The position numbers were made by a program, and so were the translations under genes. The notes under the pieces are model-generated. The model made no database searches and was not told the DNA's origin. It worked only from the letters and a program-made list of their open reading frames with translations. Of a stretch of DNA of 64,000 bases, positions 19,518-32,740 are shown one piece after another (the first letter of the stretch is position 1; each line of letters begins with the position of its first letter). The DNA is from Akkermansia sp. (GTDB taxonomy: Bacteria; Verrucomicrobiota; Verrucomicrobiia; Verrucomicrobiales; Akkermansiaceae), in NCBI GenBank assembly GCA_017555025.1, contig JAFZHC010000006.1, positions 1 to 64,000 of the forward strand. Direction: 5' to 3'.

Positions 19518-20411
19518 ATGAAGCGTTGGTGCATCGATGAGCTGAGTGAGTTCGGGCGGCAGCACTATAAGAATGTGGTTTATGTGCGTTTTGATCGCGA
19601 TGACTTTGTGCGCCAATCTTTCGAGAAAGATTACGACATCCCCCGCTTGATGGACACGCTGCAGGTGCATAGCCGTGTGCAGGAAGCTCTGTTGGCCGAC
19701 TATCGCAATGACTTCAGTAAACATGCTACGGATGCCGAGACTCATTACATTACGCAGATATGGGACTCCGTGCCCGAGCAGCTTGCTCGTGAGGATAAGC
19801 GCTTTGTGCATGCTGATGTAGGACCGCGTGTGCGGGCTCCGCTACTGCGTGCTCCTATCCGCTGGCTGGACGACGCTGCGCTGGTGCAGATAGTACCGCG
19901 CGTCAAAAAGCCCGAAATGCCTCTCTCCGCATACAAGGATGGTGCCTACAAGATGTTCTTCCTCGATGTCGGCTTGCTGGGCGCGGCCTGTAAGTTGCCT
20001 CCATCAGTCATACTGGAGGGTAACAGCATTTTCGGTCAGTTCAAAGGAGCACTTACGGAGCAGTACGTGCAGCAGCAGTTGCGCTCAGAATGCAGTATTT
20101 CTCCCTATTATTGGAGCGCCGAACGAGCTCAGGCTGAGGTGGATTTTCTTATCGAGAGCGATTACCGCATCTTCCCGGTCGAGGTGAAGGCTGAGTTGAA
20201 CTTGCAGGCTAAGAGCCTTCGCAGCTTCTGCAAGCGGTATCGCTACCCGGTTGCTTTGCATATATCTATGAGCTCTCACCAGGTCAGTACTGTGCACATT
20301 GCACCCGGCAAGGCAGACCCTCAGGGGCATACTTACACGGTGGTAGATATTCCGCTCTATGCGGTCGCCTCAGCTCCGGCCGAGGCGGGTGAGCTGAAGG
20401 TGGAGACTTGA
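19518..20411 (+). pseudogene. Truncated and internally deleted DUF4143-type AAA ATPase
   Basis: The C-terminal part fits ATP-binding proteins with a DUF4143 domain: QEALLADYRNDFSKHA, then PIRWLDDAALVQIV, PLSAYKDGAYKMFFLDVGLLGAAC, and the nuclease-like ending VDFLIESDYRIFPVEVKAE. The N-terminus starts just after where the P-loop should be (DELSEFGRQHYKNVVYVRFDRDD), so Walker A is absent. The middle jumps from DTLQVHSR to VQEALLADY, losing the Walker B and DEIQ region. Since ATP binding is impossible, I call it a pseudogene kept in frame; reading is open from TTG at 19461, and ATG 19518 has the only ordinary GGAG Shine-Dalgarno-like sequence noted. Full-length relatives are about 400 residues or more. 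Confidence 0.72.
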
Positions 20412-20572: not shown

Positions 20573-21133
20573 ATGGACGCCACCTCTCTTCTTGCTACTG
20601 AAATTGATTATGAGAAATATGATGACGATGATGCCTATATCGTCGCTTACAATGAATTGATTGAACAGCTGCGTGCTTGTGCCAAGGCTCATGCTCAGGG
20701 TACAGATGGCTGTGAGCAGAATATCGAAACTGCCGTTGCCTGCTGGCAGAAGGCAGCTGAGCTGGAAGATCCTGAGTCTCTTTGTGCTCTTGCTGACTAT
20801 TATCTTTCCTCCGGCGATGATGACGGAGCCATTAACTGGCTGCATAAGGTAGTGCAGGTGTATGACTTGGAGCAGCCTCTCTGCTCTCTTATCGCTCTGC
20901 TTCACAAGCGCAATAGTGAGGAAGATCGCTCCGAGCTCGATTCTCTCTATCGCACCCTAGTCTCGGGTTTTCCCAGCGCTGAACACCACTACGACTACGC
21001 TCGCTACCTCCTCTCGGTAGACTCTGCTCCGCACTCCCTTACCCGTCGCAAGGCTGTTCGCTTCCTTGAGCTTGCCTCCGCAACCGGTCATGCTGATGCT
21101 GCGGAGCTCCTCGACCGCCTCGGTCGTCGCTAA
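20573..21133 (+). CDS. Sel1/TPR-like helical repeat protein
   Basis: 186 residues, acidic, all-helical. Repeat-type segments are IETAVACWQKAAELEDPESLCALADYYLSSGDDDGAINWLHKV (about 50-95) and the last helix pair RKAVRFLELASATGHADAAELLDRL (about 159-183). The 'A...W..KAAE....ESL..LA..Y' pattern is that of Sel1-like repeats, which form scaffolds for protein contacts. There is no signal peptide, so it should be cytoplasmic. It converges with the Ser/Thr kinase gene 108 bases downstream. The partner is unknown; a link with the kinase is only a guess from position. Confidence 0.7.
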   Translation: MDATSLLATEIDYEKYDDDDAYIVAYNELIEQLRACAKAHAQGTDGCEQNIETAVACWQKAAELEDPESLCALADYYLSSGDDDGAINWLHKVVQVYDLEQPLCSLIALLHKRNSEEDRSELDSLYRTLVSGFPSAEHHYDYARYLLSVDSAPHSLTRRKAVRFLELASATGHADAAELLDRLGRR

Positions 21134-21174
21134 GTTTGCGTTGCCTCTTTGTTTGGCTTTACTCGGTTTCTCTC

Positions 21175-21209
21175 GGCTCGCTGGCTTTTCGCTAAGCGAG
21201 CCGGAGTTT
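21175..21209 (+). terminator. Terminator of the Sel1-like gene
   Basis: GGCTCGCT/AGCGAGCC stem with a 12-base loop followed by GGAG and six T. It lies between convergent genes and can serve the plus strand. Confidence 0.75.
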
Positions 21210-21241
21210 TTTCTGAGTAGTCCAAGGCTGCGAATTTCTAC

Positions 21242-22441
21242 TCACTTTGTTTCGTTGAGTAAACCTCGGAGCTTTTGTTCTAATTCTTTAAGAAGCTTTT
21301 CTCGAGCCTGATTTTGCTGTTCTCCGGGTATTTGCTGCTTTTGGGCTTCTTTCAGGTAATGAATCAGGTCTTGCCAATATTGTTCATAAATTCGCCCGGC
21401 CTGCTCTTTGATGGCGGGTGAATTGCTTCCGTTCTGCCCGGAGGAGTCGTAGATTACGGTCCCATCTTCTAAAATAATGCATTCCGGGATGTTTTCCGTT
21501 GTTATGGAGGCGGAGGGTGGTATATTGTAGGTATTGTTCGGCTGTCTGTTGTCTGCTTGTTTTTCATGGTGTAGCGCCTGCAGACTGAGCCCTCCGATGA
21601 TGCCCCCCAGCAGCAGGCTTGCCGGAAGAAAGAACAGGGTCTTGTTGCGGGTGGGTGTGCGTAGCTCCTGAAGCCATTCCTGCGCCGAGACGTAGCGATC
21701 GGCCACTTCGGGGGCGGCTGCTTTTCGGAGGGTTTTCAGGAAACGACGAGGATAACATTTCTTGCTCTCTCTCGGCAGCAGATGTAGGAAGCTCTGAGCT
21801 AGTGCATACAAATCGGACCACGCGCCCACACGCCCATTGGGGCTGAATTGTTCAGGTGCCGCATATCCGGGGGAGCCTACCGGAGTGAGAGTGTGATTTG
21901 CGGTTCCCAGATGGGCGGAGCCGAAGTCGATGATAGTCGGTTGTCCGTCGTCGCGGATAATGAGATTAGAGGGTTTGATATCGCGGTGGATGATGCTGTT
22001 ACCATGCAGGTAGTGCAGCGTATGCAGCAATTGTTCGAGGATAGTCTGTACGGCTGCTGCGTTGTCGGCAATTTGCGGCATTCTGGTTCGCAGCGTGCTA
22101 CCCTCCACATACTCCATCACCAAGTACGCCGTGCCGGAGCCTTCAAAGATATCATAGATTTTCACCACATTCGGGTGATTCAGGCCGGCGAGTATGCGGG
22201 CCTCTCGGCAGAATGTTGCTAGCGAGCGGGGGTAGAGTATCTCATCCATCGGCTCGACTTCTGAGCTGCCTGCAGCACGCATGCAGAGCCCCATGGGAAA
22301 GTGCTCCTTGATGACCACTTCACGCTCCAGAGCACGATCATAGGCCAGATAGCTGATGCCGCCTCCTCCCTGACCCAGTACAGCACGAATCTCACAACTG
22401 CCCAGTACGGTTTTCTCCGGTAGAGCGGGGGAGTTCATCAT
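21242..22441 (-). CDS. Membrane Ser/Thr protein kinase (PknB-like) with periplasmic coiled coil
   Basis: The 399-residue protein has an N-terminal Hanks-type kinase domain (about 12-270). It contains the glycine loop VLGQGGGGISY, the lysine in VVIKEHFP, catalytic HRDIKPSN (about 154), metal-binding DFGSA (about 172), and the P+1 region GSPGYAAPEQF. A single hydrophobic segment (about 275-297) is followed by about 100 residues outside, including a charged coiled-coil end (YLKEAQKQQIPGEQQNQAREKLLKELEQKL). So it can carry a signal across the inner membrane. It is 17 bases downstream of the HTH regulator gene, so probably in one unit. Targets unknown; neighbours on both sides are candidates. Confidence 0.9.
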   Translation of the reverse strand: MMNSPALPEKTVLGSCEIRAVLGQGGGGISYLAYDRALEREVVIKEHFPMGLCMRAAGSSEVEPMDEILYPRSLATFCREARILAGLNHPNVVKIYDIFEGSGTAYLVMEYVEGSTLRTRMPQIADNAAAVQTILEQLLHTLHYLHGNSIIHRDIKPSNLIIRDDGQPTIIDFGSAHLGTANHTLTPVGSPGYAAPEQFSPNGRVGAWSDLYALAQSFLHLLPRESKKCYPRRFLKTLRKAAAPEVADRYVSAQEWLQELRTPTRNKTLFFLPASLLLGGIIGGLSLQALHHEKQADNRQPNNTYNIPPSASITTENIPECIILEDGTVIYDSSGQNGSNSPAIKEQAGRIYEQYWQDLIHYLKEAQKQQIPGEQQNQAREKLLKELEQKLRGLLNETK

Positions 22442-22458
22442 CGCTCGGAATGATATAA

Positions 22459-22899
22459 TTAGCTATTTGACGGAAGAATCACCTTGCGGCTGCGTAGTTC
22501 CGCTGTGACTGTTCTGTCCTTGCTTTCTGCCACTAGTGCAGCAATCGCCTGAGCCACTAGTGTCTCCAAGGTTACGCCTCGGGCGGCTGCTCGTTCCGCC
22601 AGCCGGGCATACTGCTCGGGTGCCAGCTGTACCGTCAGAGAGAGAGAGGCATTGACATTCACCCCCGGAACTTCCGTGGGGGCAGCTCCGCCGGAAGCGG
22701 ACAATGACGGCATCTGTACCATTACCTTTTCCAGTAATTGTAACTTGAGCGGTGGAATGTTCTTCTGGCTCATCCAGTTGCGTACCGTTATTTCGGATAC
22801 GCCGCATTGCTCTGCCACCCAGCGGTAGTCCAGCCCGTGGCTCTTGAGCCACTTCTTCACCATCGCTTTGAATTCCGACTGATTCGCCTCCTGCGTCAT
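22459..22899 (-). CDS. HTH regulator with C-terminal ribbon-helix-helix-like module
   Basis: Residues about 8-50 form a helix-turn-helix of XRE type (KKWLKSHGLDYRWVAEQCGVSEITVRNWMSQKNIPP). The C-terminal part, about 85-125, has a strand followed by two helices (LTVQLAPEQYARLAERAAARGVTLETLVAQAIAALV), as in CopG/Arc-like or toxin-antitoxin-related folds. The same module is found in the next small protein encoded upstream. It has a leaderless-type promoter and precedes the kinase gene by 17 bases. Its likely role is control of its own kinase unit or of the divergent SPFH operon; that is inference. Confidence 0.72.
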   Translation of the reverse strand: MTQEANQSEFKAMVKKWLKSHGLDYRWVAEQCGVSEITVRNWMSQKNIPPLKLQLLEKVMVQMPSLSASGGAAPTEVPGVNVNASLSLTVQLAPEQYARLAERAAARGVTLETLVAQAIAALVAESKDRTVTAELRSRKVILPSNS

Positions 22900-22906
22900 G
22901 CTTCTG

Positions 22907-22934
22907 AGTTTACCACATACTCCTTGATTGTCAA
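22907..22934 (-). promoter_or_regulatory. Leaderless promoter of the HTH regulator-kinase unit
   Basis: Minus strand: TTGACA (22929-22934), 16-base spacer ending TGG, TAAACT (22907-22912), 7 bases, ATG. Confidence 0.7.
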
Positions 22935-22963
22935 GACAACACTCCTGCCGTATTAATCTGCTG

Positions 22964-23203
22964 CTATTGTAACAATTTTCCTACAGCCTGAGCCACCATT
23001 GCCTCAGGGGTGCCACCCTCCAGCATTGCTCGTTTTGCCAGTACGGCATATTCCTCCGGTGTTAGTTCTATTCGGATGTTTCGTGAGATTGTCGCATTGA
23101 GCGATTCTATTAGAGATGTTTTGTCGCTCTCCTTTTTAGCTCCGCTGATTCTGCTGTTTTCTTCATAACTATCAGCAATTAAAGTCTTGGTTATGGTTGT
23201 CAT
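22964..23203 (-). CDS. Small protein sharing the regulator's C-terminal module
   Basis: 79 residues. The last 45 (NATISRNIRIELTPEEYAVLAKRAMLEGGTPEAMVAQAVGKLL) align with the C-terminal module of the HTH regulator (NASLSLTVQLAPEQYARLAERAAARG-TLETLVAQAIAALV). The HTH part is missing and is replaced by a polar N-terminus. It could be a ribbon-helix-helix regulator of its own or a modulator that pairs with the HTH protein. It has its own leaderless-type promoter and is divergent from the SPFH operon. Confidence 0.65.
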   Translation of the reverse strand: MTTITKTLIADSYEENSRISGAKKESDKTSLIESLNATISRNIRIELTPEEYAVLAKRAMLEGGTPEAMVAQAVGKLLQ

Positions 23204-23209
23204 GCCCTA

Positions 23210-23238
23210 GTTATAGCACGAAAAAAAAGATTTGTAAA
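23210..23238 (-). promoter_or_regulatory. Leaderless promoter of the 79-residue regulator-like gene
   Basis: Minus strand: TTTACA (23233-23238), 17-base spacer ending TGC, TATAAC (23210-23215), 6 bases, ATG. Confidence 0.65.
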
Positions 23239-23260
23239 CTATCTTTCTGAGATTTTGTTG

Positions 23261-23288
23261 TTGACAAAGTAGTAAAACGAGATAATAT
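23261..23288 (+). promoter_or_regulatory. Promoter of the SPFH operon
   Basis: TTGACA (23261-23266), 16-base spacer, TAATAT (23283-23288). It is divergent from, and about 23 bases away from, the promoter of the small regulator-like gene, so a common operator in between is possible. Confidence 0.65.
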
Positions 23289-23292
23289 ATAC

Positions 23293-23458
23293 GCGGAAGT
23301 CGACGCTGAATCTCAAGAAATGTCGCTGAGGTTCATGTGGACTTTTCCGCAACATTAACCTGAAACGAGTAGAAAAAGATAATGATGAAGCAAACGAGTT
23401 GCAACAAGTTGCCGGTATCAGCCGGCAGTTCGACGGATTTACCCCTTTACTTCAGGGG
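23293..23458 (+). ncRNA. Structured 5' leader (possible cis-regulatory RNA) of the SPFH operon
   Basis: Between the promoter and the first ATG at 23494 the roughly 200-base leader holds three hairpins. (1) GCGGAAGT (23293-23300) pairs with ACTTTTCCGC (23341-23350, two-base bulge), and encloses a second stem TGAATCTCA/TGAGGTTCA (23307-23315/23327-23335). (2) TGCCGG/CCGGCA is at 23410-23427. (3) CCCCT/AGGGG at 23442-23458 is followed by a U-rich TTCTTTCTG. No matching riboswitch class is recognised. It could be an attenuator or a small RNA. Confidence 0.4.
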
Positions 23459-23493
23459 AGGTTCTTTCTGATAAGCTAAAATTAATTGGTAAT

Positions 23494-23796
23494 ATGAAAA
23501 AGATAAAAAAACTTTTGCTGACAACCGTGGCTATTCTTTTAACGGCTTGCGGTCCTGCTACATACGATATAGAAAACCCGGAGGAGAGTGTAGCTAAGAT
23601 GCTCGAACCTCTCACTTCGGCAGAAAAAGAGAAATTCGTGAATGCAATTGGGAAGATTACTTTCAAGCGCATTCGGGAAGAAAACATGTCTCTTATGGAA
23701 TTTGCGAAAATTTCTAAAGATCCGGAAAAGATGAAGGAACTTATGCGCTGTATTGATGGCAAGACAGTAGATGAGATTATCGAGTTGGCTCAATAA
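23494..23796 (+). CDS. Small lipoprotein heading the SPFH operon
   Basis: 100 residues. A signal peptide MKKIKKLLLTTVAILLTAC ends in a lipobox LTAC with the cysteine at residue 19. The mature part is short, charged and helical (ESVAKMLEPLTSAEKEKFVNAIGKITF, MKELMRCIDGKTVDEIIELA). The '.LS..EKEKF..AI..I' pattern recalls a group of small lipoproteins of unknown function. It is first in the operon, 45 bases before the first SPFH gene. No function can be assigned. Confidence 0.75.
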   Translation: MKKIKKLLLTTVAILLTACGPATYDIENPEESVAKMLEPLTSAEKEKFVNAIGKITFKRIREENMSLMEFAKISKDPEKMKELMRCIDGKTVDEIIELAQ

Positions 23797-23841
23797 TACA
23801 ACTTTCCAATAACAATCCAAACTGAAATTATATAAACTATT

Positions 23842-24651
23842 ATGGACTTTATTCATACAGTTCCGCAAGGCTATGAGGCAATCGTTGTCATGTTCGGCAA
23901 GCCTGTCAGGAGATGTAAAAGCGGTCTGAATTGCTGTATTCCCTTTCTACAGAGCTTCTACAATGTTACCGATAATCGTAACTGGACAGAAACTCGTAAG
24001 GATGACGATGGCACGCTGATTGAGATTACTGAACAGATTTCAGATTATCCCCGTAAACCTTTTATCACTAGTGACGGAGTAAACATTACTGTTGATGTAG
24101 TGGCCTACTGGCGTATCAACGACGTAATGAAGGCCGTCTTTGCTGTTGATGAGCTCCACCGCAGTATTGAGGAAAAAATCCTGACAGAAGTTCGTACATT
24201 TGTTGGCGAACGCAGCATGAAGCAGCTGCTGAGTGATCGTGTTAATCTCTCACATGCTATTGTTACCAAAATTGCAGGTGAGGTTGCCAAGTGGGGCATT
24301 AGCATGACTTCGGTCGATATTCAAACAATAACGATGTCGAAAGACGCCCAGGCTGCGATGCTTCAGGAAATGGAGGCAGAGCGAAGAGCCCGTGCTATCA
24401 GGCATGAGACTCAGGGTAAGGCTGCGGCTATTCAGATGGAAGCGGAGGCTCATCGAAAGGCTTTGCAGATGAAAGCAGAAGCCCAAAAGGCTTATCTTGA
24501 GGAGCTTGCCTCCATCATTGGGCAGGAGGGCGCTCTTCAAGTGTTGCTCAGTCAGCAGGCTTTGGATGGTTACAAGATTATTAGTGAGACGGAGGATTCT
24601 ACAGTCTATCTGCCGAGTAACATGATGACTGCGCTTAACATCAATAATTAA
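23842..24651 (+). CDS. SPFH (stomatin/prohibitin/flotillin-type) protein, copy 1
   Basis: Forms membrane-associated ring scaffolds in related proteins. The 269 residues start directly with the SPFH1 strand (VPQGYEAIVVMFGKPVRRCKSGLNCCIPF). The core strand region FITSDGVNITVDVVAYWRIND and SVDIQTITM follow, then a charged helix AAMLQEMEAERRARAIRHETQGKAAAIQMEAEAHRKALQMKAEAQKAYLEEL (about 175-228). The usual N-terminal membrane helix or hairpin is absent, so attachment must come from a partner, most likely the NfeD-like protein encoded in the operon. Copy 2 follows after 57 bases and aligns without gaps. Confidence 0.92.
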   Translation: MDFIHTVPQGYEAIVVMFGKPVRRCKSGLNCCIPFLQSFYNVTDNRNWTETRKDDDGTLIEITEQISDYPRKPFITSDGVNITVDVVAYWRINDVMKAVFAVDELHRSIEEKILTEVRTFVGERSMKQLLSDRVNLSHAIVTKIAGEVAKWGISMTSVDIQTITMSKDAQAAMLQEMEAERRARAIRHETQGKAAAIQMEAEAHRKALQMKAEAQKAYLEELASIIGQEGALQVLLSQQALDGYKIISETEDSTVYLPSNMMTALNINN

Positions 24652-24708
24652 GCATAGTCGGAGGTTTTAATAACATTTCAAATAATAAGAAAATCAATTT
24701 ACACTATC

Positions 24709-25518
24709 ATGGACTTTATTCGCACTATTCCGCAAGGGCACGAGTCAATCGTAGTAATGTTCGGCAAGCCTGTTAAGAAATGCAGGAGTGGGCTTGCAAT
24801 GTGCATACCTTTCATTCAACATTTCTACAATGTTAATGAAGAACGTGGTTGGAAGCACACTTGCCATGCAAGTGACGGTACCTTAATTGAGATTACTGAG
24901 CAGATTTCTGATCTTAATGAGGTTCCATTCATCACTAAGGATGGAGTAAATGTTAATGTTGATGTTGTATGCTACTGGCGCATCAATGATGTAATAAAGG
25001 CTGTATATGCTGTTGACCATCTGCACAGAAGCCTTAAAGAAAAAATCCTTGCAGAAGTTCGCATTCTTGTTGGTGAGCGTACTTTGCAGCAGCTGTTAAG
25101 TGATCGTTCTACTCTTTCTCAGGGGATTGTTACCAAAATTGCAGGTGAGGTTGCCAAGTGGGGCATTAGTGTGACTTCTGTTGACATTCAAACAATTGAA
25201 ATGGATGAAGCGGTTGAGGCTGCTATGCTCCAGGAAATGGAAGCCGAGCGCAAGGCCCGGGCCATTAAGCTTGAGACACAAGGCAGGGTGGAAGCTATTC
25301 AAATGGAGGCTGAAGCTCAGTGTAAGGCTCTGATGATTAAAGCTGAAGCTCAGAAGGCGTACGTTGAAGAGCTTGCTGACATTGTTTCACCGAAAGGCGC
25401 CTTGAAGATTCTCCTTAGCCAGCAGGCTTTGGATGGCTACAAGGTTATTAGTGAGACGAAGGGAGCAAAGGTTTACCTTCCGAGCAACATGACGGGCGTT
25501 CTTAATATCAAAAACTAA
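24709..25518 (+). CDS. SPFH (stomatin/prohibitin/flotillin-type) protein, copy 2
   Basis: Same 269-residue length as copy 1, aligned end to end without gaps, with most positions identical (for example FITKDGVNVNVDVVCYWRIND, VTKIAGEVAKWGIS.TSVDIQTI, LSQQALDGYK.ISET). Differences gather at residues 45-75 and in the charged helix. This suggests a tandem duplication with divergence toward a two-subunit ring, as prohibitins 1 and 2 alternate in eukaryotes; that comparison is inference. It also lacks the N-terminal membrane segment. Starts 57 bases after copy 1, without a Shine-Dalgarno sequence, and is followed by the NfeD-like gene after 15 bases. Confidence 0.92.
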   Translation: MDFIRTIPQGHESIVVMFGKPVKKCRSGLAMCIPFIQHFYNVNEERGWKHTCHASDGTLIEITEQISDLNEVPFITKDGVNVNVDVVCYWRINDVIKAVYAVDHLHRSLKEKILAEVRILVGERTLQQLLSDRSTLSQGIVTKIAGEVAKWGISVTSVDIQTIEMDEAVEAAMLQEMEAERKARAIKLETQGRVEAIQMEAEAQCKALMIKAEAQKAYVEELADIVSPKGALKILLSQQALDGYKVISETKGAKVYLPSNMTGVLNIKN

Positions 25519-25533
25519 CTAAATATTATTACT

Positions 25534-26013
25534 ATGTATATACTTGCTGATTTTCTTTGGATAAGTGATGGTGTGTTCCTGCATTGGCTGCTGGCAATTG
25601 CCCTGACAGCATTGGTGCTGGACGTCTTTTTTCAGACCGAGGTTGTTTCTTGGGGGGCTCTTGTGGCGTTTGCTATCTGGGCAACCTGCAAGTGCGATTT
25701 ACCCACACAGTGGTCTGTTTTGTTATTTATCGTATTTTTGGGAATTGCAATCGCTTTGTACTGCGCGGTTTGGAAGCAGCTCCTCTCTCGCTTTACAAAT
25801 AAGGTTCTGATGAAGAATGCTCCCAAGGAGGTATTGGACGGCTATGTTGGCGGTAAGGGAGAGATTTGCGGCGAGGGTAGCAACATGTGTGTGAAATATA
25901 ACACGGAATTGCATATCGTTGCAGAGGAATGCCGAGATGGGCTGACAGCCGGCGATAAGGTTATTATCTGCGAGTTTAAAGATGGCTATGCCGTTGTAAA
26001 ACCGATTCAGTAA
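25534..26013 (+). CDS. NfeD-like membrane protein (short type)
   Basis: 159 residues. Three hydrophobic helices (about 15-35, 38-54, 60-83) are followed by a soluble C-terminal domain (about 98-159) with the OB-fold pattern of NfeD: GYVGGKGEICGEGS..VKYNTELHIVAEECRDGLTAGDKVIICEFKDGYAVVKP. SPFH and NfeD genes are classical neighbours in bacteria (YqiK/NfeD, QmcA/YbbK) and bind each other through the OB fold. This is the short type without the ClpP-like protease domain. It should anchor the two soluble SPFH proteins at the inner membrane. Confidence 0.85.
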   Translation: MYILADFLWISDGVFLHWLLAIALTALVLDVFFQTEVVSWGALVAFAIWATCKCDLPTQWSVLLFIVFLGIAIALYCAVWKQLLSRFTNKVLMKNAPKEVLDGYVGGKGEICGEGSNMCVKYNTELHIVAEECRDGLTAGDKVIICEFKDGYAVVKPIQ

Positions 26014-26100
26014 CTAAATTAGTTCATAGCAGAGCAGCAGACTGCATGTGCGGTCTGCTGCCCTGTAGCCCTTATGACAATCATACAACTATAAAGCTAT

Positions 26101-29100
26101 ATGGCGAAGAAGAAGAAGAACAATGGGTGCGGCTGTCTCCTTTTCGTTTTGTTGGCTGCGGGCGGTGGCTGGTATTGGTACAGTAGCTGCGATTCTCTCC
26201 TTAATGAAGGGGCTGAAACAAATAAAGAAGCCGGTGTACGAGCTGAGATTCCGGTAACTACCACCAATGCCGCCGGGGAAAACGAAGAAGAACAGGCCGG
26301 CTCTGAAGTACCAAAAGAAAACACAACATCAGCCGCTCCTGAACCTGAGATTTCACCTGCAGAACAGTCTGAATTGTTAACGCCTTTGCACATGGCTATC
26401 TGCAATAATGACTCGGGACTTTTGGGTGAGATTAATGCTATACGCGCCCTGATAACGCACCTGGATAAGGCGGAAATGGCTCAATATTTGGCAGATAAGG
26501 GTATTACCCCCGATAAATACCTTGCAACTACGTTGAAAGCTATTGAGCAGGGGGACGCAGATTTGGTTATTCGATTGCTGGCATGCGGCGTGCCGACAGA
26601 TAAAAAAGATGAAAATAATGTTTCGCCGCACAGTCTGCTTTTGAGAAAGTCAGATCTAACGCCTGACATCATACATGTTCTTGTTGCTGCAGATATTACA
26701 GACCCGAACAAACTGAATGAGAAGGGCAAAAACATTCTCCTTGAGGCGTGGGAAAACAATACTGCACCCGCTGTGTTGGAAGTATTGAAAACGCTGGGCT
26801 GTACTTACGGTAGCAAGCTGCACACGGCTGTTATCTACGGAGATATCGAAGCCGCTACGAAGGCTATCAACGAAGGGCAATCCGTCAATGATGTCGGTGA
26901 GCATGGTTATTCACCTATATGCATGTCTTTGAATTGCAGAAACAATGAATTGTTCAAATTACTGCTTAATAAAGGTGCTGATTTGAATCAATTTGTCGGT
27001 AACGCCCATTTCACTTTGTTGGATTGTGCTATTCTGTTGAAAAATGTGGAGGCCGCTAAGTTGCTCATTGAGGCAAAAGCGGATGTCAACCGAGTACACG
27101 AGAAGAATAAAAACTGGGCGCCGCTTGTTCGTGTCTGCAAGAAAAAAGAAACACAAACACTCATACCTGTACTTATTGCAGCAGGCGCTGATATTACAGT
27201 AACTGACAGTAATAAGAACACAGCATTACACCTGATTTGCGAATCCATTTACGACGGGCAAAGCGTAGAAGCCCTACGAGCAATTCTCTCCAAAAATCCG
27301 GATATTCACCAGACAAACGAGATAGGGTATACGCCGTTGCTCAAACTGGCCAGCAAGTTCCACAAGGCATATGGCGAGAATCCCGAGTGTGATAAGCAAG
27401 CTGTAGTCGAAGCCTTAAATGAATTGCTGAAGGCCGGTGCTGACCCCTACGCAGCTCATTTGGCGGGAAATACTTCTGCGTTTTTTGACTTACGGGGATA
27501 TGATGAACCTGTTACCGCACTTAAATATGCAGAGCTTTGTAACGCGACGGAGTGTATCGAAATTCTCAAGACTGCGTGTGAAAATACCAAGCCCGGAATC
27601 GCGTCTAAACTTTCCGGTGCAATCTCTGTGAAAGAAGCTGTGGCCATGTTGAAGAAATATGACCTGCTTGATGAATACAATCCAACCGTCACCAATCCGT
27701 TCTTCACAGAAATGGCTTATCAGGAGGTTTCGGATATGGAGTGCATCATGAGCATGATGTTTTTAAAGGCTCCGCCTCCCTGCTATTACAAACGCCGGGT
27801 CAAGGAATTTGAAAAGCATATTGAGATGCTCGATGACAAGATGGAAACAATCAATGATTACGCTTACCTGAGCGCAATCTACATCTTGTCAGACTGGGTG
27901 ACTACCTATGCATCAACCAGCCCTCAGCGCCAAATTCTGGAAAAAGTGACCATTGCTTTTATTGCTGCAGGACATGATATCAATAAGGTATCAACGAAAG
28001 CGGATGATGAAAAGTTGCTCACCAGCAAGGAAACACCGTTGATTACAGCTACTCGATGCAATAACGCAGATATGGTTCGGCTGCTGCTGGAGCTCGGTGC
28101 AGACCCCAACATAAAAAATGAAGAGGGAGCTACTGCTCGCGATATAGCCACAGCCAATAACAGAACCAATGTGTTAAAGGTTTTGGATGAATTAGCTCCC
28201 GCCCCTGAAACAACGCCGGTTCCTGAAGCATCTGTACAAGAACCGGTCTCTGAGCCCATTAGCCCGTTGACAGAAACAGAACAAAAGAGCCAGACAAAAG
28301 CTGTATCCTCAGAAGCTCTTGTAAAATTACAACCTCTGTATGATCGTTTGGCCCGGCTCAAGTGCAAGGAGGAATATTCTGCATTGTGCCAGAAACGCCT
28401 GCTGATGCTCCTTGATAACATTCGTAACGGAGGTGACATCAACATGTCTACCGAAGAAACGAAAGGAAACAGCGCATTGCATTACTCCTGCTCACTGGGT
28501 AGCCTCAGCATCACAACCTGGTTGCTTGAAAATGGAGCTGATCCTAACGCCAAAACGGCAAAAGGTGCCAGTCCGATAACTTGTGTGGGTACTGATAACC
28601 GCGATGCTATCATCGCCCTTCTCAAAAAGTATGGAGCGCATGCTGGTGACGGAGATGCCGATACCGGCAAGAGTGAATCTACGCCGGAAGAAAAGGCCGA
28701 GCCCGCTGCTCTGTTCAATGAGGATAACACGCCAACAGATGAAACTACGAATAATGTTGTCAGCAAGCGTTTCTCTCTCATGACAATGCCTGATGTTTCA
28801 CTGGCTGCCTTCATGGATGTATTCGCCAATGAAGTCATCGAGTTGAAGAGCAATAAAGTGGTTTCTGTTACTGCACTACATGAAAAAGCTCAGCGGCAGA
28901 ACGAGACATGGCCGTCTCGCGCCGTTAAATTGCTTGACATGGGGATTTTCGGGCGACGCATAGAAGCGAACGTGGCCTTGGTGTATAAAAACTCAACCAA
29001 CGGCAAGTCAATCTCCGCATACAATAAAGTCGTTATGCTGCTTGATGAACACGGTAAGATTTGCGGTATGTCTGAAACATTCTCCAGCAAACGCTCCAAA

Positions 29101-29166
29101 CTTTCCAGAAAATACAAGTCCGTGAAATTCACTGGTGAAGATCCCGTATTTGTAGGCTCTGAATAA
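26101..29166 (+). CDS. Giant membrane-anchored ankyrin-repeat protein
   Basis: 1021 residues. A lysine-rich start MAKKKKNN precedes one hydrophobic helix (about 9-28), which by the positive-inside rule places the rest in the periplasm. A Glu/Pro/Ala-rich linker (about 40-90) leads to ankyrin repeats in several groups: about 260-460 (LFKLLLNKGADLNQF, AAKLLIEAKADVNRV, LIPVLIAAGADITVTDSNKNTALHLIC), about 640-700 (TPLITATRCNNADMVRLLLELGADPNIKNEEGATARDIA), and about 780-850 (SALHYSCSLGSLSITTWLLENGADPNAKTAKGASPI). The last 115 residues form a separate domain I cannot name (FSLMTMPDVSLAAFMDVFANEVIELKS...). Such repeats bind proteins. It is in the middle of the SPFH operon, 87 bases after the NfeD-like gene. 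Confidence 0.85.
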   Translation: MAKKKKNNGCGCLLFVLLAAGGGWYWYSSCDSLLNEGAETNKEAGVRAEIPVTTTNAAGENEEEQAGSEVPKENTTSAAPEPEISPAEQSELLTPLHMAICNNDSGLLGEINAIRALITHLDKAEMAQYLADKGITPDKYLATTLKAIEQGDADLVIRLLACGVPTDKKDENNVSPHSLLLRKSDLTPDIIHVLVAADITDPNKLNEKGKNILLEAWENNTAPAVLEVLKTLGCTYGSKLHTAVIYGDIEAATKAINEGQSVNDVGEHGYSPICMSLNCRNNELFKLLLNKGADLNQFVGNAHFTLLDCAILLKNVEAAKLLIEAKADVNRVHEKNKNWAPLVRVCKKKETQTLIPVLIAAGADITVTDSNKNTALHLICESIYDGQSVEALRAILSKNPDIHQTNEIGYTPLLKLASKFHKAYGENPECDKQAVVEALNELLKAGADPYAAHLAGNTSAFFDLRGYDEPVTALKYAELCNATECIEILKTACENTKPGIASKLSGAISVKEAVAMLKKYDLLDEYNPTVTNPFFTEMAYQEVSDMECIMSMMFLKAPPPCYYKRRVKEFEKHIEMLDDKMETINDYAYLSAIYILSDWVTTYASTSPQRQILEKVTIAFIAAGHDINKVSTKADDEKLLTSKETPLITATRCNNADMVRLLLELGADPNIKNEEGATARDIATANNRTNVLKVLDELAPAPETTPVPEASVQEPVSEPISPLTETEQKSQTKAVSSEALVKLQPLYDRLARLKCKEEYSALCQKRLLMLLDNIRNGGDINMSTEETKGNSALHYSCSLGSLSITTWLLENGADPNAKTAKGASPITCVGTDNRDAIIALLKKYGAHAGDGDADTGKSESTPEEKAEPAALFNEDNTPTDETTNNVVSKRFSLMTMPDVSLAAFMDVFANEVIELKSNKVVSVTALHEKAQRQNETWPSRAVKLLDMGIFGRRIEANVALVYKNSTNGKSISAYNKVVMLLDEHGKICGMSETFSSKRSKLSRKYKSVKFTGEDPVFVGSE

Positions 29167-29203
29167 GCAACATCCTAATATAAACCAACACACATATACA
29201 AAT

Positions 29204-29812
29204 ATGAACAACAAAAACAAAACAACAATCGCCGGTATTCTCTCAATCAGCATCATGGCTGCTCCTTTAACCTCCTGTTCTCTTGATGATACAGGGATGA
29301 CCCAAATTCAGGGGTCGACTCTGGGGGCATTGGGTGGTGCTGTGGTAGGTGGTGCCATTGGATTAGCTGTTGGTGGTGACACCAAATCTGTAGTAGCCGG
29401 CGCTATTGCCGGTGGGCTTCTGGGTGGTGCAGCCGGTCTGCAGTGGGCAAACTCTATCGTGAAAGAGAAAGCCTCTTATGCCTCCATGGAAGAATACATC
29501 AACGATAACCAGAAGCAGCTCGATAATCGTATTACTGATGTGAAGAAGGCTAATTCTGACCTCTCTAACCAGATTGCTCAGTTGAAAAAAGATAAGACCG
29601 CTGTTTCCAAGGCAAACATTGCTAAGCAGAATGCCAAGCTGACGGAAAATCTTGCTCTGATTGATACTGACATTACCACCGCTAAGGACGCCGCAAAAGA
29701 AGCATCGGGTGCGGAACTTACCGAGCTGAATCAGAAGATTGATGCCCTGAGCAAGGAAAAAGCAAGTCTTCAGGCCAATATCAGTGAGCTTGATTCTCTT
29801 TCTTCCATTTAA
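29204..29812 (+). CDS. Glycine-zipper lipoprotein with coiled coil
   Basis: 202 residues. A signal peptide with lipobox PLTSC (cysteine 25) is followed by a glycine-zipper segment (about 37-80: GSTLGALGGAVVGGAIGLAVGG...GAIAGGLLGGAAGL) of the kind that can insert in or span a membrane. The last 110 residues are a long charged coiled coil (about 95-200: QLDNRITDVKKANSDLSNQIAQLKKDK...LNQKIDALSKEKASLQANI). Likely anchored in the outer or inner membrane leaflet, with the coiled coil reaching into the periplasm. It shares the coiled-coil plan with the next lipoprotein. Confidence 0.85.
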   Translation: MNNKNKTTIAGILSISIMAAPLTSCSLDDTGMTQIQGSTLGALGGAVVGGAIGLAVGGDTKSVVAGAIAGGLLGGAAGLQWANSIVKEKASYASMEEYINDNQKQLDNRITDVKKANSDLSNQIAQLKKDKTAVSKANIAKQNAKLTENLALIDTDITTAKDAAKEASGAELTELNQKIDALSKEKASLQANISELDSLSSI

Positions 29813-29837
29813 TTCCTCTTTCAGGATTTAAATTCAG

Positions 29838-30182
29838 ATGAGCCGTAACCTTATCATCGCCGTTGTTTCTTGTGCCGCTTTTGTGGGGCTCTGTTCATGC
29901 AGCACCACAGGAGATCCTACCCAAGGGGGGATTTTTTGGTCGCCAACCAAGGCACAAGAGCGTCAGAACGCTTTGTTGAGTGCCATGACGGAAACTCAAT
30001 CACAAGTAGATACGCTAGAGGCAGAGCGCAGTCAACTTCTTCAGCAAAAAAACAGCTTGAAGAGACTGATTCAACAGTTGCGTACGCAAGCTGCACAAAC
30101 TCCCAATTCGGCAGAAGCAGTAGAATTGAACGCTCGTATCTTGAAACTGGAAAGTCAGCTTGAAAATCTTTCCACCATTTGA
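29838..30182 (+). CDS. Small coiled-coil lipoprotein
   Basis: 114 residues. The lipobox is GLCSC, with the lipidated cysteine at residue 21. The mature part is a coiled coil (about 40-112: SQVDTLEAERSQLLQQKNSLKRLIQQLRTQ...VELNARILKLESQLENL). The ending resembles that of the glycine-zipper protein (both end in a leucine/serine heptad with 'L..L.SI/STI'), so the two may pair. Last gene of the SPFH operon, 25 bases after the previous one, followed by a strong terminator. Confidence 0.82.
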   Translation: MSRNLIIAVVSCAAFVGLCSCSTTGDPTQGGIFWSPTKAQERQNALLSAMTETQSQVDTLEAERSQLLQQKNSLKRLIQQLRTQAAQTPNSAEAVELNARILKLESQLENLSTI

Positions 30183-30223
30183 TGTCTTGAGACATTTATA
30201 ATTCTCGTACTCATCAACAACAA

Positions 30224-30259
30224 TGCGTCGGATATCTCAGAATGTCCGGCGCATTTTTT
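30224..30259 (+). terminator. Terminator of the SPFH operon
   Basis: TGCGTCGGA/TCCGGCGCA stem (9 bp, one G-T pair), 12-base loop, followed by six T. Marks the end of the seven-gene unit. Confidence 0.85.
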
Positions 30260-30532
30260 AACGCTTGTTCTGAATATGCTAACTATACTTATTTGTAGAT
30301 GCTACTGATTTTATTCTACTATTAGCTACAAATTACAAAAAGTCGATGATATAAAGGGTAACGAATAAATGCATGGAGATAATAATAGAAAAGGACAGCT
30401 CGAGTTTCTCCCATTGGTTAAATATATGATATCGTAGTATGTAAAGAATTATGGTGAATTAGACGTTTTATGGATGCGAAACAAGATGGAACACCATTTA
30501 AAGGCATAAGAAAAGAGAAGTAGAATAATGTA
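30260..30532 (+). other. A+T-rich gene-free spacer
   Basis: About 270 bases between the SPFH operon terminator and the recQ terminator. Stop codons are frequent in all frames. I see no promoter with good spacing, repeat or RNA structure in it. Confidence 0.6.
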
Positions 30533-30562
30533 AGCCCCCGCTATGATTTCATTGCGGGGGCT
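30533..30562 (-). terminator. Hairpin after recQ
   Basis: AGCCCCCGC/GCGGGGGCT, 9-bp perfect stem, 12-base loop, 31 bases after the recQ stop. The U-tract on the minus strand is weak (TTACATTATTC). Confidence 0.65.
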
Positions 30563-30592
30563 GATTACAGATTGGCAAATAAACTTCCCCCA

Positions 30593-32740
30593 TTACACCT
30601 GCTCGTAGTCCTGAATCAATTCCACGAAGGCGCGGAGGACGTGTTGTTTGGCCCAGGGGCCGACGCCTTTGAGGCGGGAGGCGGCCTCGATGGTAGTGGG
30701 TTTGATGGTGGCGAGGGAGCGGAGGGTTTCGGTGCTGAGCACGCGGTAGACGGGCATGCGGTATTCGGCGGCGAGGTCGCGGCGTAGATCGCTGAGGTGC
30801 TCGTAGAGAGCCTTGTCGAGGCGTCCCATTTGCATGGCATTCAGCACGCGCTCGGAGCGGTTGCGGATGGTAGAGGTGCGCACCTGTTTGATGGCGGTAC
30901 TGCTCCAGATGCGGCGAGTGAGGCGTGCCTGTTCTTGTTCTTTCATGACGCTTTCCCCTTTTGCCGTGAGGGTAATGAGGGGCAGTTCGCCCCCGGTGGT
31001 AGCGATGAGGCCTCCCTCTTGCAGGGAGCGGAAGAGGGCGCGAAGTTTGGCTCCGGTCATGTGCGACAGTAGGCCGTAGGTGCTCAGTCGGGTGAGTTGC
31101 GGGGGGAGGGTAGCTCGTTGCGAGCCTCGCAGCATGTCGGTTATCTTAGCACGGCCGAAGATGCCCTGCCATGTGCCATCGGGCATGCGTCGACTGGCTC
31201 TTGCTACGCCGGCCAACGCTTTGCGTACAATGATGAGGTCTTCGCCATCAATATCTTCTACGTCTCCCGGTTCCTCAGCGTTGCAGACATCACAATGTCC
31301 GCAGTCGCCCGAGGAGGTCTCGCCGAAGTAGTCGAGAATCCACCGTTGACGACATCCCGCGCTGTAGGCGTAGCGGGTCATGGCCTCAATTTTTTGGTGG
31401 TCACGGCGTGCTTTTTCCTCGATGGCGTTCGTATCAATCGGGAGGGCTGCAAAGGGGGTGGCCTGATTGGTGAGGCGGGTGAGCTTAGTATTGCTACCGG
31501 GTACATCGGAGCGCGTGATGGCACCGGCGTGGATGAGAGCGGAGAGAGCAGTACCAACAGCCATGGGGTTCACTTCCTTGCCGAGTTCTGCCGCCATGTG
31601 CTCCACGGTCATTTGCAGTTCGCCTTGGGAATTGCACCGGCTGCGCAGCAAATGATAGACGCTGCGGATGGTTTGCACGGAGGGGTTGCTCCCCTCGAAA
31701 AAGAATTCCTGCGTTTTGAGATCTGCGTGGTTGAAGAGCAACTCACAGGCTGAGAGTTCTCCGTCTCGCCCGGCTCGGCCTGCCTCTTGGTAGTAGGCTT
31801 CCACACTACCGGGTATTTCGAAATGGAGCACGAAACGCACGTCGGCGCGGTCAATACCCATGCCGAAGGCGTTGGTAGCCACGACTACGTCAGCACGGCC
31901 GGAGATGAAGGCATTTTGTGAGAATTCACGCTCTTCGTCGGTCATGCCTGCGTGGTAGGCGACTGCGTTGGAGCCGCAGCCGCTGATTTCCTCGAAAACA
32001 GTCATGACGTTTTTGCGCGTAGAGCAGTAGATGATGCCTTTGCGCCATTTGGTTATCACCTGACGTATGCGCTCAAATTTGGCTTGGCGATTTTCGCAAT
32101 GGGTGATGGCGAAGTCGAGATTGTCGCGCCCGAAACCGCTGATGATAATGGCAGGCTCGTTGAGCTGTAAGGTGTTCAGGATATCCTGCCGTACGGCATC
32201 GGTAGCGGTGGCCGTAAGGGCTACTGTTTGAGGGTAACCTAATTCGCTGCGTACGCGCCCTAGGCGCAGGTAGTCCGGGCGGAAATCGTGTCCCCATTGG
32301 CTCAGGCAATGGGCTTCATCGATAGCCAGCAGGCTTACCTGCATGCTGCGCAGGAGGTTCATGAATCCTTCCTGCCCAAAGCGTTCCGGTGCAACATAGA
32401 TGAGGCGGAGCTCTCCGTTGCGAAGTGCGCTCATGACTTGCCGGTATTCATCCGCTCCCAATGAGGAGTTGACTGCCGCTGCCGGTACGCCGCGTGCTTG
32501 CAGGGCGTCCACTTGGTCTTTCATGAGGGCAATGAGCGGGCTGACGACGACAGTAAGCCCCTCGCGGCAAAGTGCCGGGAGCTGGTAACACAGGGATTTG
32601 CCGCCGCCGGTGGGCATGATAGCGAGAGCATCCCGTCCTGCCATAATGGCGTCTACAATGGCATCTTGCCCGGAGCGCAGTCCGTCAAAGCCGAAGACGG
32701 AGCGAAGGACGTCGTGCACATCTGCTATCTGTTGTACCAT
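30593..32740 (-). CDS. recQ: ATP-dependent DNA helicase RecQ
   Basis: 3'-5' helicase of recombination and replication restart. The 715-residue protein has the SF2 motifs: GGGKSLCYQLPAL (Walker A, about 40), DEAHCLSQWGHDFRPDYLRLG (about 138), ALTATAT, AFGMGIDRADVRFVLHF (about 290) and YYQEAGRAGRDG (about 312). A zinc-binding region with cysteines is in CRQRWILDYFG...CGHCDVC (about 455-480). A winged-helix region and a C-terminal HRDC domain (about 635-710) complete the standard RecQ plan. The ATG lies 8 bases after a TATAAT box. Confidence 0.95.
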   Translation of the reverse strand: MVQQIADVHDVLRSVFGFDGLRSGQDAIVDAIMAGRDALAIMPTGGGKSLCYQLPALCREGLTVVVSPLIALMKDQVDALQARGVPAAAVNSSLGADEYRQVMSALRNGELRLIYVAPERFGQEGFMNLLRSMQVSLLAIDEAHCLSQWGHDFRPDYLRLGRVRSELGYPQTVALTATATDAVRQDILNTLQLNEPAIIISGFGRDNLDFAITHCENRQAKFERIRQVITKWRKGIIYCSTRKNVMTVFEEISGCGSNAVAYHAGMTDEEREFSQNAFISGRADVVVATNAFGMGIDRADVRFVLHFEIPGSVEAYYQEAGRAGRDGELSACELLFNHADLKTQEFFFEGSNPSVQTIRSVYHLLRSRCNSQGELQMTVEHMAAELGKEVNPMAVGTALSALIHAGAITRSDVPGSNTKLTRLTNQATPFAALPIDTNAIEEKARRDHQKIEAMTRYAYSAGCRQRWILDYFGETSSGDCGHCDVCNAEEPGDVEDIDGEDLIIVRKALAGVARASRRMPDGTWQGIFGRAKITDMLRGSQRATLPPQLTRLSTYGLLSHMTGAKLRALFRSLQEGGLIATTGGELPLITLTAKGESVMKEQEQARLTRRIWSSTAIKQVRTSTIRNRSERVLNAMQMGRLDKALYEHLSDLRRDLAAEYRMPVYRVLSTETLRSLATIKPTTIEAASRLKGVGPWAKQHVLRAFVELIQDYEQV

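Follow-up and report, generated by a model that had tools for sequence, protein, structure and literature searches.

A recurrent kinase-regulator head faces variable envelope-type operons in gut Akkermansia

Beside recQ in a 64,000-nucleotide stretch of an Akkermansia sp. genome (assembly GCA_017555025.1, contig JAFZHC010000006.1, positions 1 to 64,000; hereafter the window), an inserted unit combines two divergent parts. Its head encodes a Ser/Thr protein kinase and two small regulators, R1 and R2. Its cargo is a seven-gene operon for a DUF6694 lipoprotein (gene A), two SPFH proteins (B and C), a short NfeD (D), a large ankyrin protein with an NTF2-like domain (E), a glycine-zipper coiled-coil lipoprotein (F; GlyZ) and a short coiled-coil lipoprotein (G; ccLP) (Table 1). 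The host is a gut Akkermansia, and the cassette occupies a spot held by restriction enzymes in close relatives, while elsewhere in the genus the same head stands opposite different envelope-type genes. We tentatively read the unit as a kinase-gated, exchangeable cassette for envelope stress (protein quality), an interpretation to which we give slightly less than even weight and in which we infer that the kinase is a sensor, that the regulators bind the operator and what the cargo does.

Comparative evidence for a seven-gene operon

The seven open reading frames lie on one strand between 23494 and 30182, separated by gaps of 45, 57, 15, 87, 37 and 25 nt. The tight same-strand packing described in an earlier reading made without database searches (the sequence-only reading) therefore holds, with gaps of 15–87 nt. 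The arrangement recurs in Akkermansia RGIG7740 (G217; G numbers denote genomes), where the order DUF6694-SPFH-SPFH-NfeD-ankyrin/NTF2-GlyZ-ccLP is kept and the cargo proteins are 59–85% (mostly 73–85%) identical to those of the window. The ratio of nonsynonymous to synonymous divergence (dN/dS, NG86) is 0.06–0.17 where computable, including 0.06 for gene B and 0.08 for gene C; dS is 1.4–1.7, near saturation, and saturated for genes A and D.

Upstream of gene A, the two genomes have a block with GTTGAC and GATA-ATATATAC in common. Downstream, the single terminator already proposed for the operon was borne out as a 14-bp hairpin with a U run (30222-30255, z −6.8), and G217 carries an equivalent strong hairpin of different sequence. 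Taken together, the conserved gene order, purifying selection, upstream block and terminator in G217 provide strong comparative evidence, at the level of sequence, that the seven genes form one operon. The linkage of ankyrin and lipoprotein genes to SPFH/NfeD genes, on which the sequence-only reading had staked its proposal, is found complete in G217 and in part in several further genomes. The A+T richness it had described is likewise present: cargo GC content is 0.45, compared with 0.53 elsewhere in the window; in G217 it is 0.48 against 0.57, and the head is near background in both (0.52 and 0.57, respectively).

Identities of the cargo proteins

Among the seven original identifications, the two SPFH proteins, the ankyrin protein and the lipoproteins stood; the first gene, described as a small lipoprotein, belongs to DUF6694, NfeD is recognisable by fold only, and E was found to end in an NTF2-like domain. 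Lipoprotein signals are present on A, F and G. Homologues of gene A occur in other cargo operons, and in over 12 genomes a gene of the F type adjoins one encoding an NTF2 domain.

The two SPFH proteins are 71% identical to each other and score 110 (B) and 106 (C) bits against a Band_7 cut-off of 23.6, which identifies the SPFH domain in both. Neither has an N-terminal hydrophobic segment corresponding to the classic SPFH transmembrane (TM) helix. A misannotated start concealing such a helix was ruled out, as the open frames span 271 and 286 aa and thus offer only 2–17 extra residues. Because B and C begin at the domain itself and their open frames are too short for the usual helix, NfeD is likely to be their membrane link. 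The best NCBIfam model for the pair is hflK, but at 60–70 bits against a cut-off of 159 the two do not qualify as HflK/HflC. Gene D has no Pfam or NCBIfam match. Its AlphaFold model (pLDDT 82) comprises three helices and a five-strand barrel, for which Foldseek returned E. coli QmcA-YbbJ (8z5g) as the best match in the PDB, followed by the NfeD domains 2exd, 3cp0 and 3wwv; one homologue of D matches NfeD at 0.003. By its predicted fold, and not by Pfam, D is an NfeD protein.

The C-terminal domain of E is without a Pfam match, and its model matches 3er7, SnoaL2 and ketosteroid isomerase structures with a TM-score of about 0.65. E had been described as a single-helix protein facing the periplasm. 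A helix candidate exists at about residues 9–27, preceded by a basic N-terminus, but it is short and falls under the hydropathy threshold used. Clear lipoprotein signals on related ankyrin proteins (at loci L223, L226, L219 and L222) favour export of this class, and we regard the proposed topology as probable, not certain. The NCBIfam equivalog for ankyrin Dot/Icm effectors (AnkH, AnkY and others) reached only 78 bits against 600, the match being the repeat itself. The genome of the window (G000) is very ankyrin-rich, with roughly 45–50 frames or ~2% of genes, and the 102-residue ankyrin-tail subfamily is expanded in this lineage. As a marker of the kinase locus this tail was rejected, since it occurs in 1–11 copies in 46 of 76 genus genomes.

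A genus-restricted head and its operator-like block

All catalytic motifs of the kinase are intact (glycine loop, Lys, HRD, DFG and APE), and one TM helix at residue 269 is followed by a ~110-aa extracytoplasmic tail. Homologues of R1 at 52–85% identity occur in ~25 genomes of the genus and weaker ones in more, whereas a scan of 289 genomes of the phylum found none outside it. At ~20 R1 loci that were read out, the kinase and usually R2 lie beside R1, and the facing genes are of envelope type but differ. The kinase-R1-R2 head belongs to the unit and is genus-restricted. In G227, an ankyrin-tail domain is fused to the C-terminus of the head kinase (L226:404-1894).

Alignment over the loci revealed a block between R2 and the cargo with the consensus TGTAAATTATCTTTTtGAgATTTTnTTGTTGACA, often accompanied by a second TTTTGAGATA at the −10 position. 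Searching 76 genus genomes with a 32-base pattern (≤3 mismatches) yielded 12 matches in 11 genomes, with two copies of the locus in G206; all were located at R1 loci, and the reversed pattern gave 0. At 18 of 25 loci the block outscored the best of 1250 shuffles, the consensus having been derived from those same loci. It is a locus-specific promoter/operator-like element, to which R1 or R2 may bind. The promoter at 23261-23288 lies inside this block, conserved across genomes, and stands on this comparative evidence; a generic promoter scan was discarded as support because its 11 sites against 12.5 expected are not above chance.

Cargo exchange opposite the head

The genes facing the head fall into several types: (i) the seven-gene SPFH/NfeD/ankyrin/lipoprotein operon of the window and G217; (ii) a set of four genes, one of them CsgG-like, in G042, G227 and G203, the last of which continues with SPFH-NfeD-ankyrin; (iii) a coiled-coil lipoprotein, a two-helix protein and a TM protein that in several cases bears an ankyrin tail, in G208, G193, G211, G212, G206 and G220; (iv) an ankyrin lipoprotein with DUF6694 in G195 and G197; (v) a zinc-ribbon protein, SPFH and DUF6694 in G199; and (vi) ankyrin/NTF2 with GlyZ in G204. 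Between G215 and G195/G197 the flanks are conserved on both sides and the cargo differs; likewise, G217 has the kinase-side flank in common with G206 and G220 and carries different cargo.

The head of the window is nearest to that of G208 (R1 84%, kinase 75%, R2 65%), whose cargo is different. In G217 the cargo genes are mostly 73–85% identical to those of the window, but the kinase is only 48% and R2 29–31% identical. Head and cargo have evidently had different histories. It is possible, though speculative, that the locus is a genus-specific expression site at which a single kinase-R1-R2 switch, acting through an operator of its own, drives exchangeable envelope cargo; Akkermansia lineages would then exchange stress or defence effectors while the phosphorylation-gated control stays constant. 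To our knowledge, such an exchangeable-cargo arrangement with its own operator is undescribed.

Insertion beside recQ

By RecQ identity, the nearest relatives of the window are G199 (92%), G073, G209, G227, G216, G060 and G228 (84%). The SPFH pair of the window is absent from all of them; G199 comes closest, with a distant SPFH under the same head elsewhere. In G228 the site is empty: recQ comes immediately after the Sel1-type gene that lies left of the unit (window 20573-21133), and 294 bp separate the homology end points. The same interval contains an EcoRII-type enzyme, a cytosine methylase and Vsr in G209, and an HpaII-type enzyme, a methylase and Vsr in G216. Between recQ and the next gene leftward lie an Eco47II-type pair in G227 and a type IV-like restriction enzyme in G199. 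Compared over window 20573-32740 and L266, L268, L269, L270 and L272, the unit sits in a restriction hotspot. An acquired, regulated module had been suggested for this region, and the empty G228 site, the restriction-modification genes of relatives, the operator-like block and the inclusion of kinase and regulators within the unit support this. A transposon-like or mobile element was rejected, given that there is no integrase among the inserted genes and no terminal repeats at the ends. To the left, the frame at window 19518-20411 encodes 297 aa; relatives have an ATPase-like protein of 434–456 aa there that starts further upstream, and a truncation or frameshift may have affected the copy in the window.

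Two cargo halves and their links to Hsp70

Within Akkermansia the TM-less SPFH-NfeD pair is widespread, and it also occurs in other Verrucomicrobiota-related lineages and one gammaproteobacterium. An ankyrin gene directly follows NfeD in the window, G217, G203, G223, G030, G115 and L176, and lies one gene later in G235. This exceeds chance, ankyrin genes being ~2% of all genes, though the genomes are related.

In seven genomes, some of them complete, the other half, NTF2-GlyZ-ccLP, is followed on the same strand by genes for a membrane protein of 389 aa, a GrpE-like protein and a pair of Hsp70s. This seven-gene cluster (L098, L100, L101, L103, L105, L106 and L107) resembles an envelope-linked chaperone operon. 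In two other genomes the triad adjoins MreB (L109:3737-4753 and L110:7468-8481). Immediately upstream of one SPFH-NfeD pair, L112:4932-6647 encodes an Hsp70 domain with C-terminal membrane helices. Linkage to Hsp70 was hence seen for the NTF2-lipoprotein half in seven genomes and for the SPFH-NfeD half in one. Since SPFH-NfeD usually stands alone and NTF2-GlyZ-ccLP usually stands with Hsp70/GrpE, the cargo is a composite of two modules, not a dedicated scaffold machine. Work cited in PMC13086221 reports that FloA-NfeD of S. aureus stabilises unfolded proteins during stress. On account of this report and the Hsp70 links of both halves, we infer a role in envelope proteostasis, a best guess held with moderate confidence.

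Table 1. Features of the inserted unit (window coordinates).
Feature	Position	Strand	Evidence or remark
Inserted unit, whole, 9.5 kb	21125..30602	.	G228 homology ends 21124, resumes 30603
Ser/Thr protein kinase, 399 aa, last head gene	21242..22441	-	Pfam Pkinase 4e-36
R1 regulator, 146 aa; helix-turn-helix (HTH)-like N-terminus, C-terminal segment common with R2	22459..22899	-	weak HTH matches
R2 small regulator, 79 aa, closest to shared promoter region	22964..23203	-	alignable with R1 C-terminal segment (profile matches)
Conserved promoter/operator-like block GTAAACTATCTTTCTGAGATTTTGTTGTTGAC	23234..23290	+	-35 TTGACA 23261-23266; -10 TAATAT 23283-23288
Gene A, DUF6694 lipoprotein, 100 aa	23494..23796	+	PF20404 E 2e-7, above cut-off; lipobox LTAC
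Gene B, SPFH/Band_7, 269 aa, without N-terminal TM helix	23842..24651	+	Pfam Band_7 1e-31
Gene C, second SPFH/Band_7, TM-less, 269 aa	24709..25518	+	Pfam Band_7 2e-30
Gene D, short NfeD, membrane helices and OB-fold (predicted)	25534..26013	+	AlphaFold model, Foldseek
Gene E, 1021 aa; N-terminal GCGC hydrophobic anchor, ankyrin repeats, ankyrin tail, C-terminal NTF2-like domain	26101..29166	+	ankyrin 9e-36
Ankyrin-tail domain of E, 102 residues	28327..28632	+	lineage-expanded subfamily, common to other cargo proteins and one kinase
NTF2/SnoaL-like C-terminal domain of E	28744..29157	+	model pLDDT 95.6
Gene F, glycine-zipper coiled-coil lipoprotein, 202 aa	29204..29812	+	glycine-zipper-like match below cut-off
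Gene G, short coiled-coil lipoprotein, 114 aa	29838..30182	+	sequence
Terminator hairpin, Rho-independent type	30222..30255	+	14-bp hairpin and U run, -20.4 kcal/mol, z -6.8

Discussion

In the working we propose for the cassette, the extracytoplasmic tail of the kinase would sense envelope trouble and its cytoplasmic domain would phosphorylate R1, R2 or both, which would then leave, or activate, the conserved operator overlapping the cargo promoter. The TM-less SPFH pair, docked at the membrane via NfeD, would act as a holdase or microdomain ring. Ring, anchored ankyrin/NTF2 protein, and the glycine-zipper and coiled-coil lipoproteins might jointly stabilise or sort damaged envelope proteins. 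In other Akkermansia, the head and operator are kept with different envelope cargo. Several observations weigh against this proposal. R2 is poorly conserved (22–65% identity to the R2 of the window), and the site otherwise holds restriction systems, suggesting defence. Across the phylum, the majority of SPFH-NfeD pairs lack a neighbouring ankyrin, lipoprotein or kinase gene. The G217 operon is broken by a contig end within the ankyrin gene (L092 then L091), across which we assume continuity. Finally, the cysteine content of E (2.25% against 0.7–1.5% in ankyrin lipoproteins of related cassettes) fits the periplasm poorly and, together with the short hydrophobic segment, leaves periplasmic placement insecure.

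The main rival is an envelope-level system against phages or competitors, in which infection or membrane attack would be sensed by the kinase, which would then switch on variable effectors at the surface or in the periplasm. Cargo that differs among relatives as defence genes do, and a recQ-side interval occupied by EcoRII-, HpaII-, Eco47II-type or type IV-like restriction in close relatives but vacant in one other, fit this idea; by its position in a restriction hotspot, the unit may have a defence role. The top PADLOC models for the kinase, PD-T4-6 and mad6, also point this way, but these matches rest on the generic kinase domain, as the remaining PADLOC matches rest on ankyrin and coiled coil, and no cargo protein specifically matches a known defence effector. 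On the kinase side, the flanks of other R1 loci show no visible wealth of defence genes, and the links of the cargo are with Hsp70/GrpE and MreB; nucleases and pore formers are not among them. We consider such a system unlikely, if worth keeping in view. The unit lies at a defence hotspot (compare G209, G216, G227 and G199). Membership in a known PADLOC defence system was rejected, as neither a system-specific effector nor a full gene set was found.

Genomic accretion, by which SPFH-NfeD and ankyrin-NTF2-lipoprotein modules came to share a promoter in this lineage without joint function, would explain why each module is mostly found apart and why the cargo is A+T-rich, and so many ankyrin genes would produce chance neighbours. 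We nevertheless think it improbable, as the seven-gene order, promoter block and terminator are kept in G217 despite dS near saturation, and NfeD is followed by ankyrin in the further genomes listed above. The sequence-only reading had favoured a static scaffold, in which a periplasmic ankyrin protein would connect a cytoplasmic SPFH-NfeD ring with lipoproteins of the outer membrane. Its topology is compatible with the NfeD helices, the basic N-terminus before the hydrophobic segment of E and the lipoprotein signals of A, F and G. The parts are, however, interchangeable between genomes, and the TM-less SPFH proteins depend on NfeD for any membrane contact; we think a static scaffold quite improbable.

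The cassette is a new arrangement built on known parts. SPFH-NfeD operons have been described (PMC2636767, PMC13086221), as have duplicated SPFH genes within them (PMC2636767). As in QmcA-YbbJ, FloA-NfeD and FloT-YuaF, SPFH here stands beside a short NfeD of matching fold (8z5g); unlike in these classic operons, the pair is TM-less and part of a kinase-associated ankyrin/lipoprotein operon. In a 2009 survey, only subfamilies SPFH8 and SPFH9 lacked the helix, and those have no NfeD, which places the TM-less SPFH proteins of the window, with their NfeD, outside that scheme. HflK/HflC, the FtsH modulators, have the Band_7 domain in common with B and C, which differ by lacking a TM helix and by their NfeD partner. 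The Akkermansia NTF2-GlyZ-ccLP-GrpE-Hsp70-Hsp70 cluster shows the same three-part order of NTF2, GlyZ lipoprotein and coiled-coil lipoprotein, whereas the window has its NTF2 domain fused to the large ankyrin protein and lacks the chaperone genes. With the restriction-modification systems at the recQ site, the unit shares the interval in mutually exclusive occupancy, but it encodes envelope proteins instead of a nuclease or methyltransferase. In the literature searched, we found neither SPFH, NfeD and ankyrin together nor DUF6694.

What SPFH-NfeD pairs do in bacteria is still a matter of dispute, and here such a pair lies beside a recognisable switch. The other half of the operon stands next to Hsp70/GrpE genes in related bacteria, which offers a direct test of a role in stress or protein quality. 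The finding also means that a restriction hotspot can harbour an envelope cassette. In a genus relevant to gut health, a constant head with swapped cargo amounts to a natural experiment, in which the same regulator and operator are combined with different envelope effectors.

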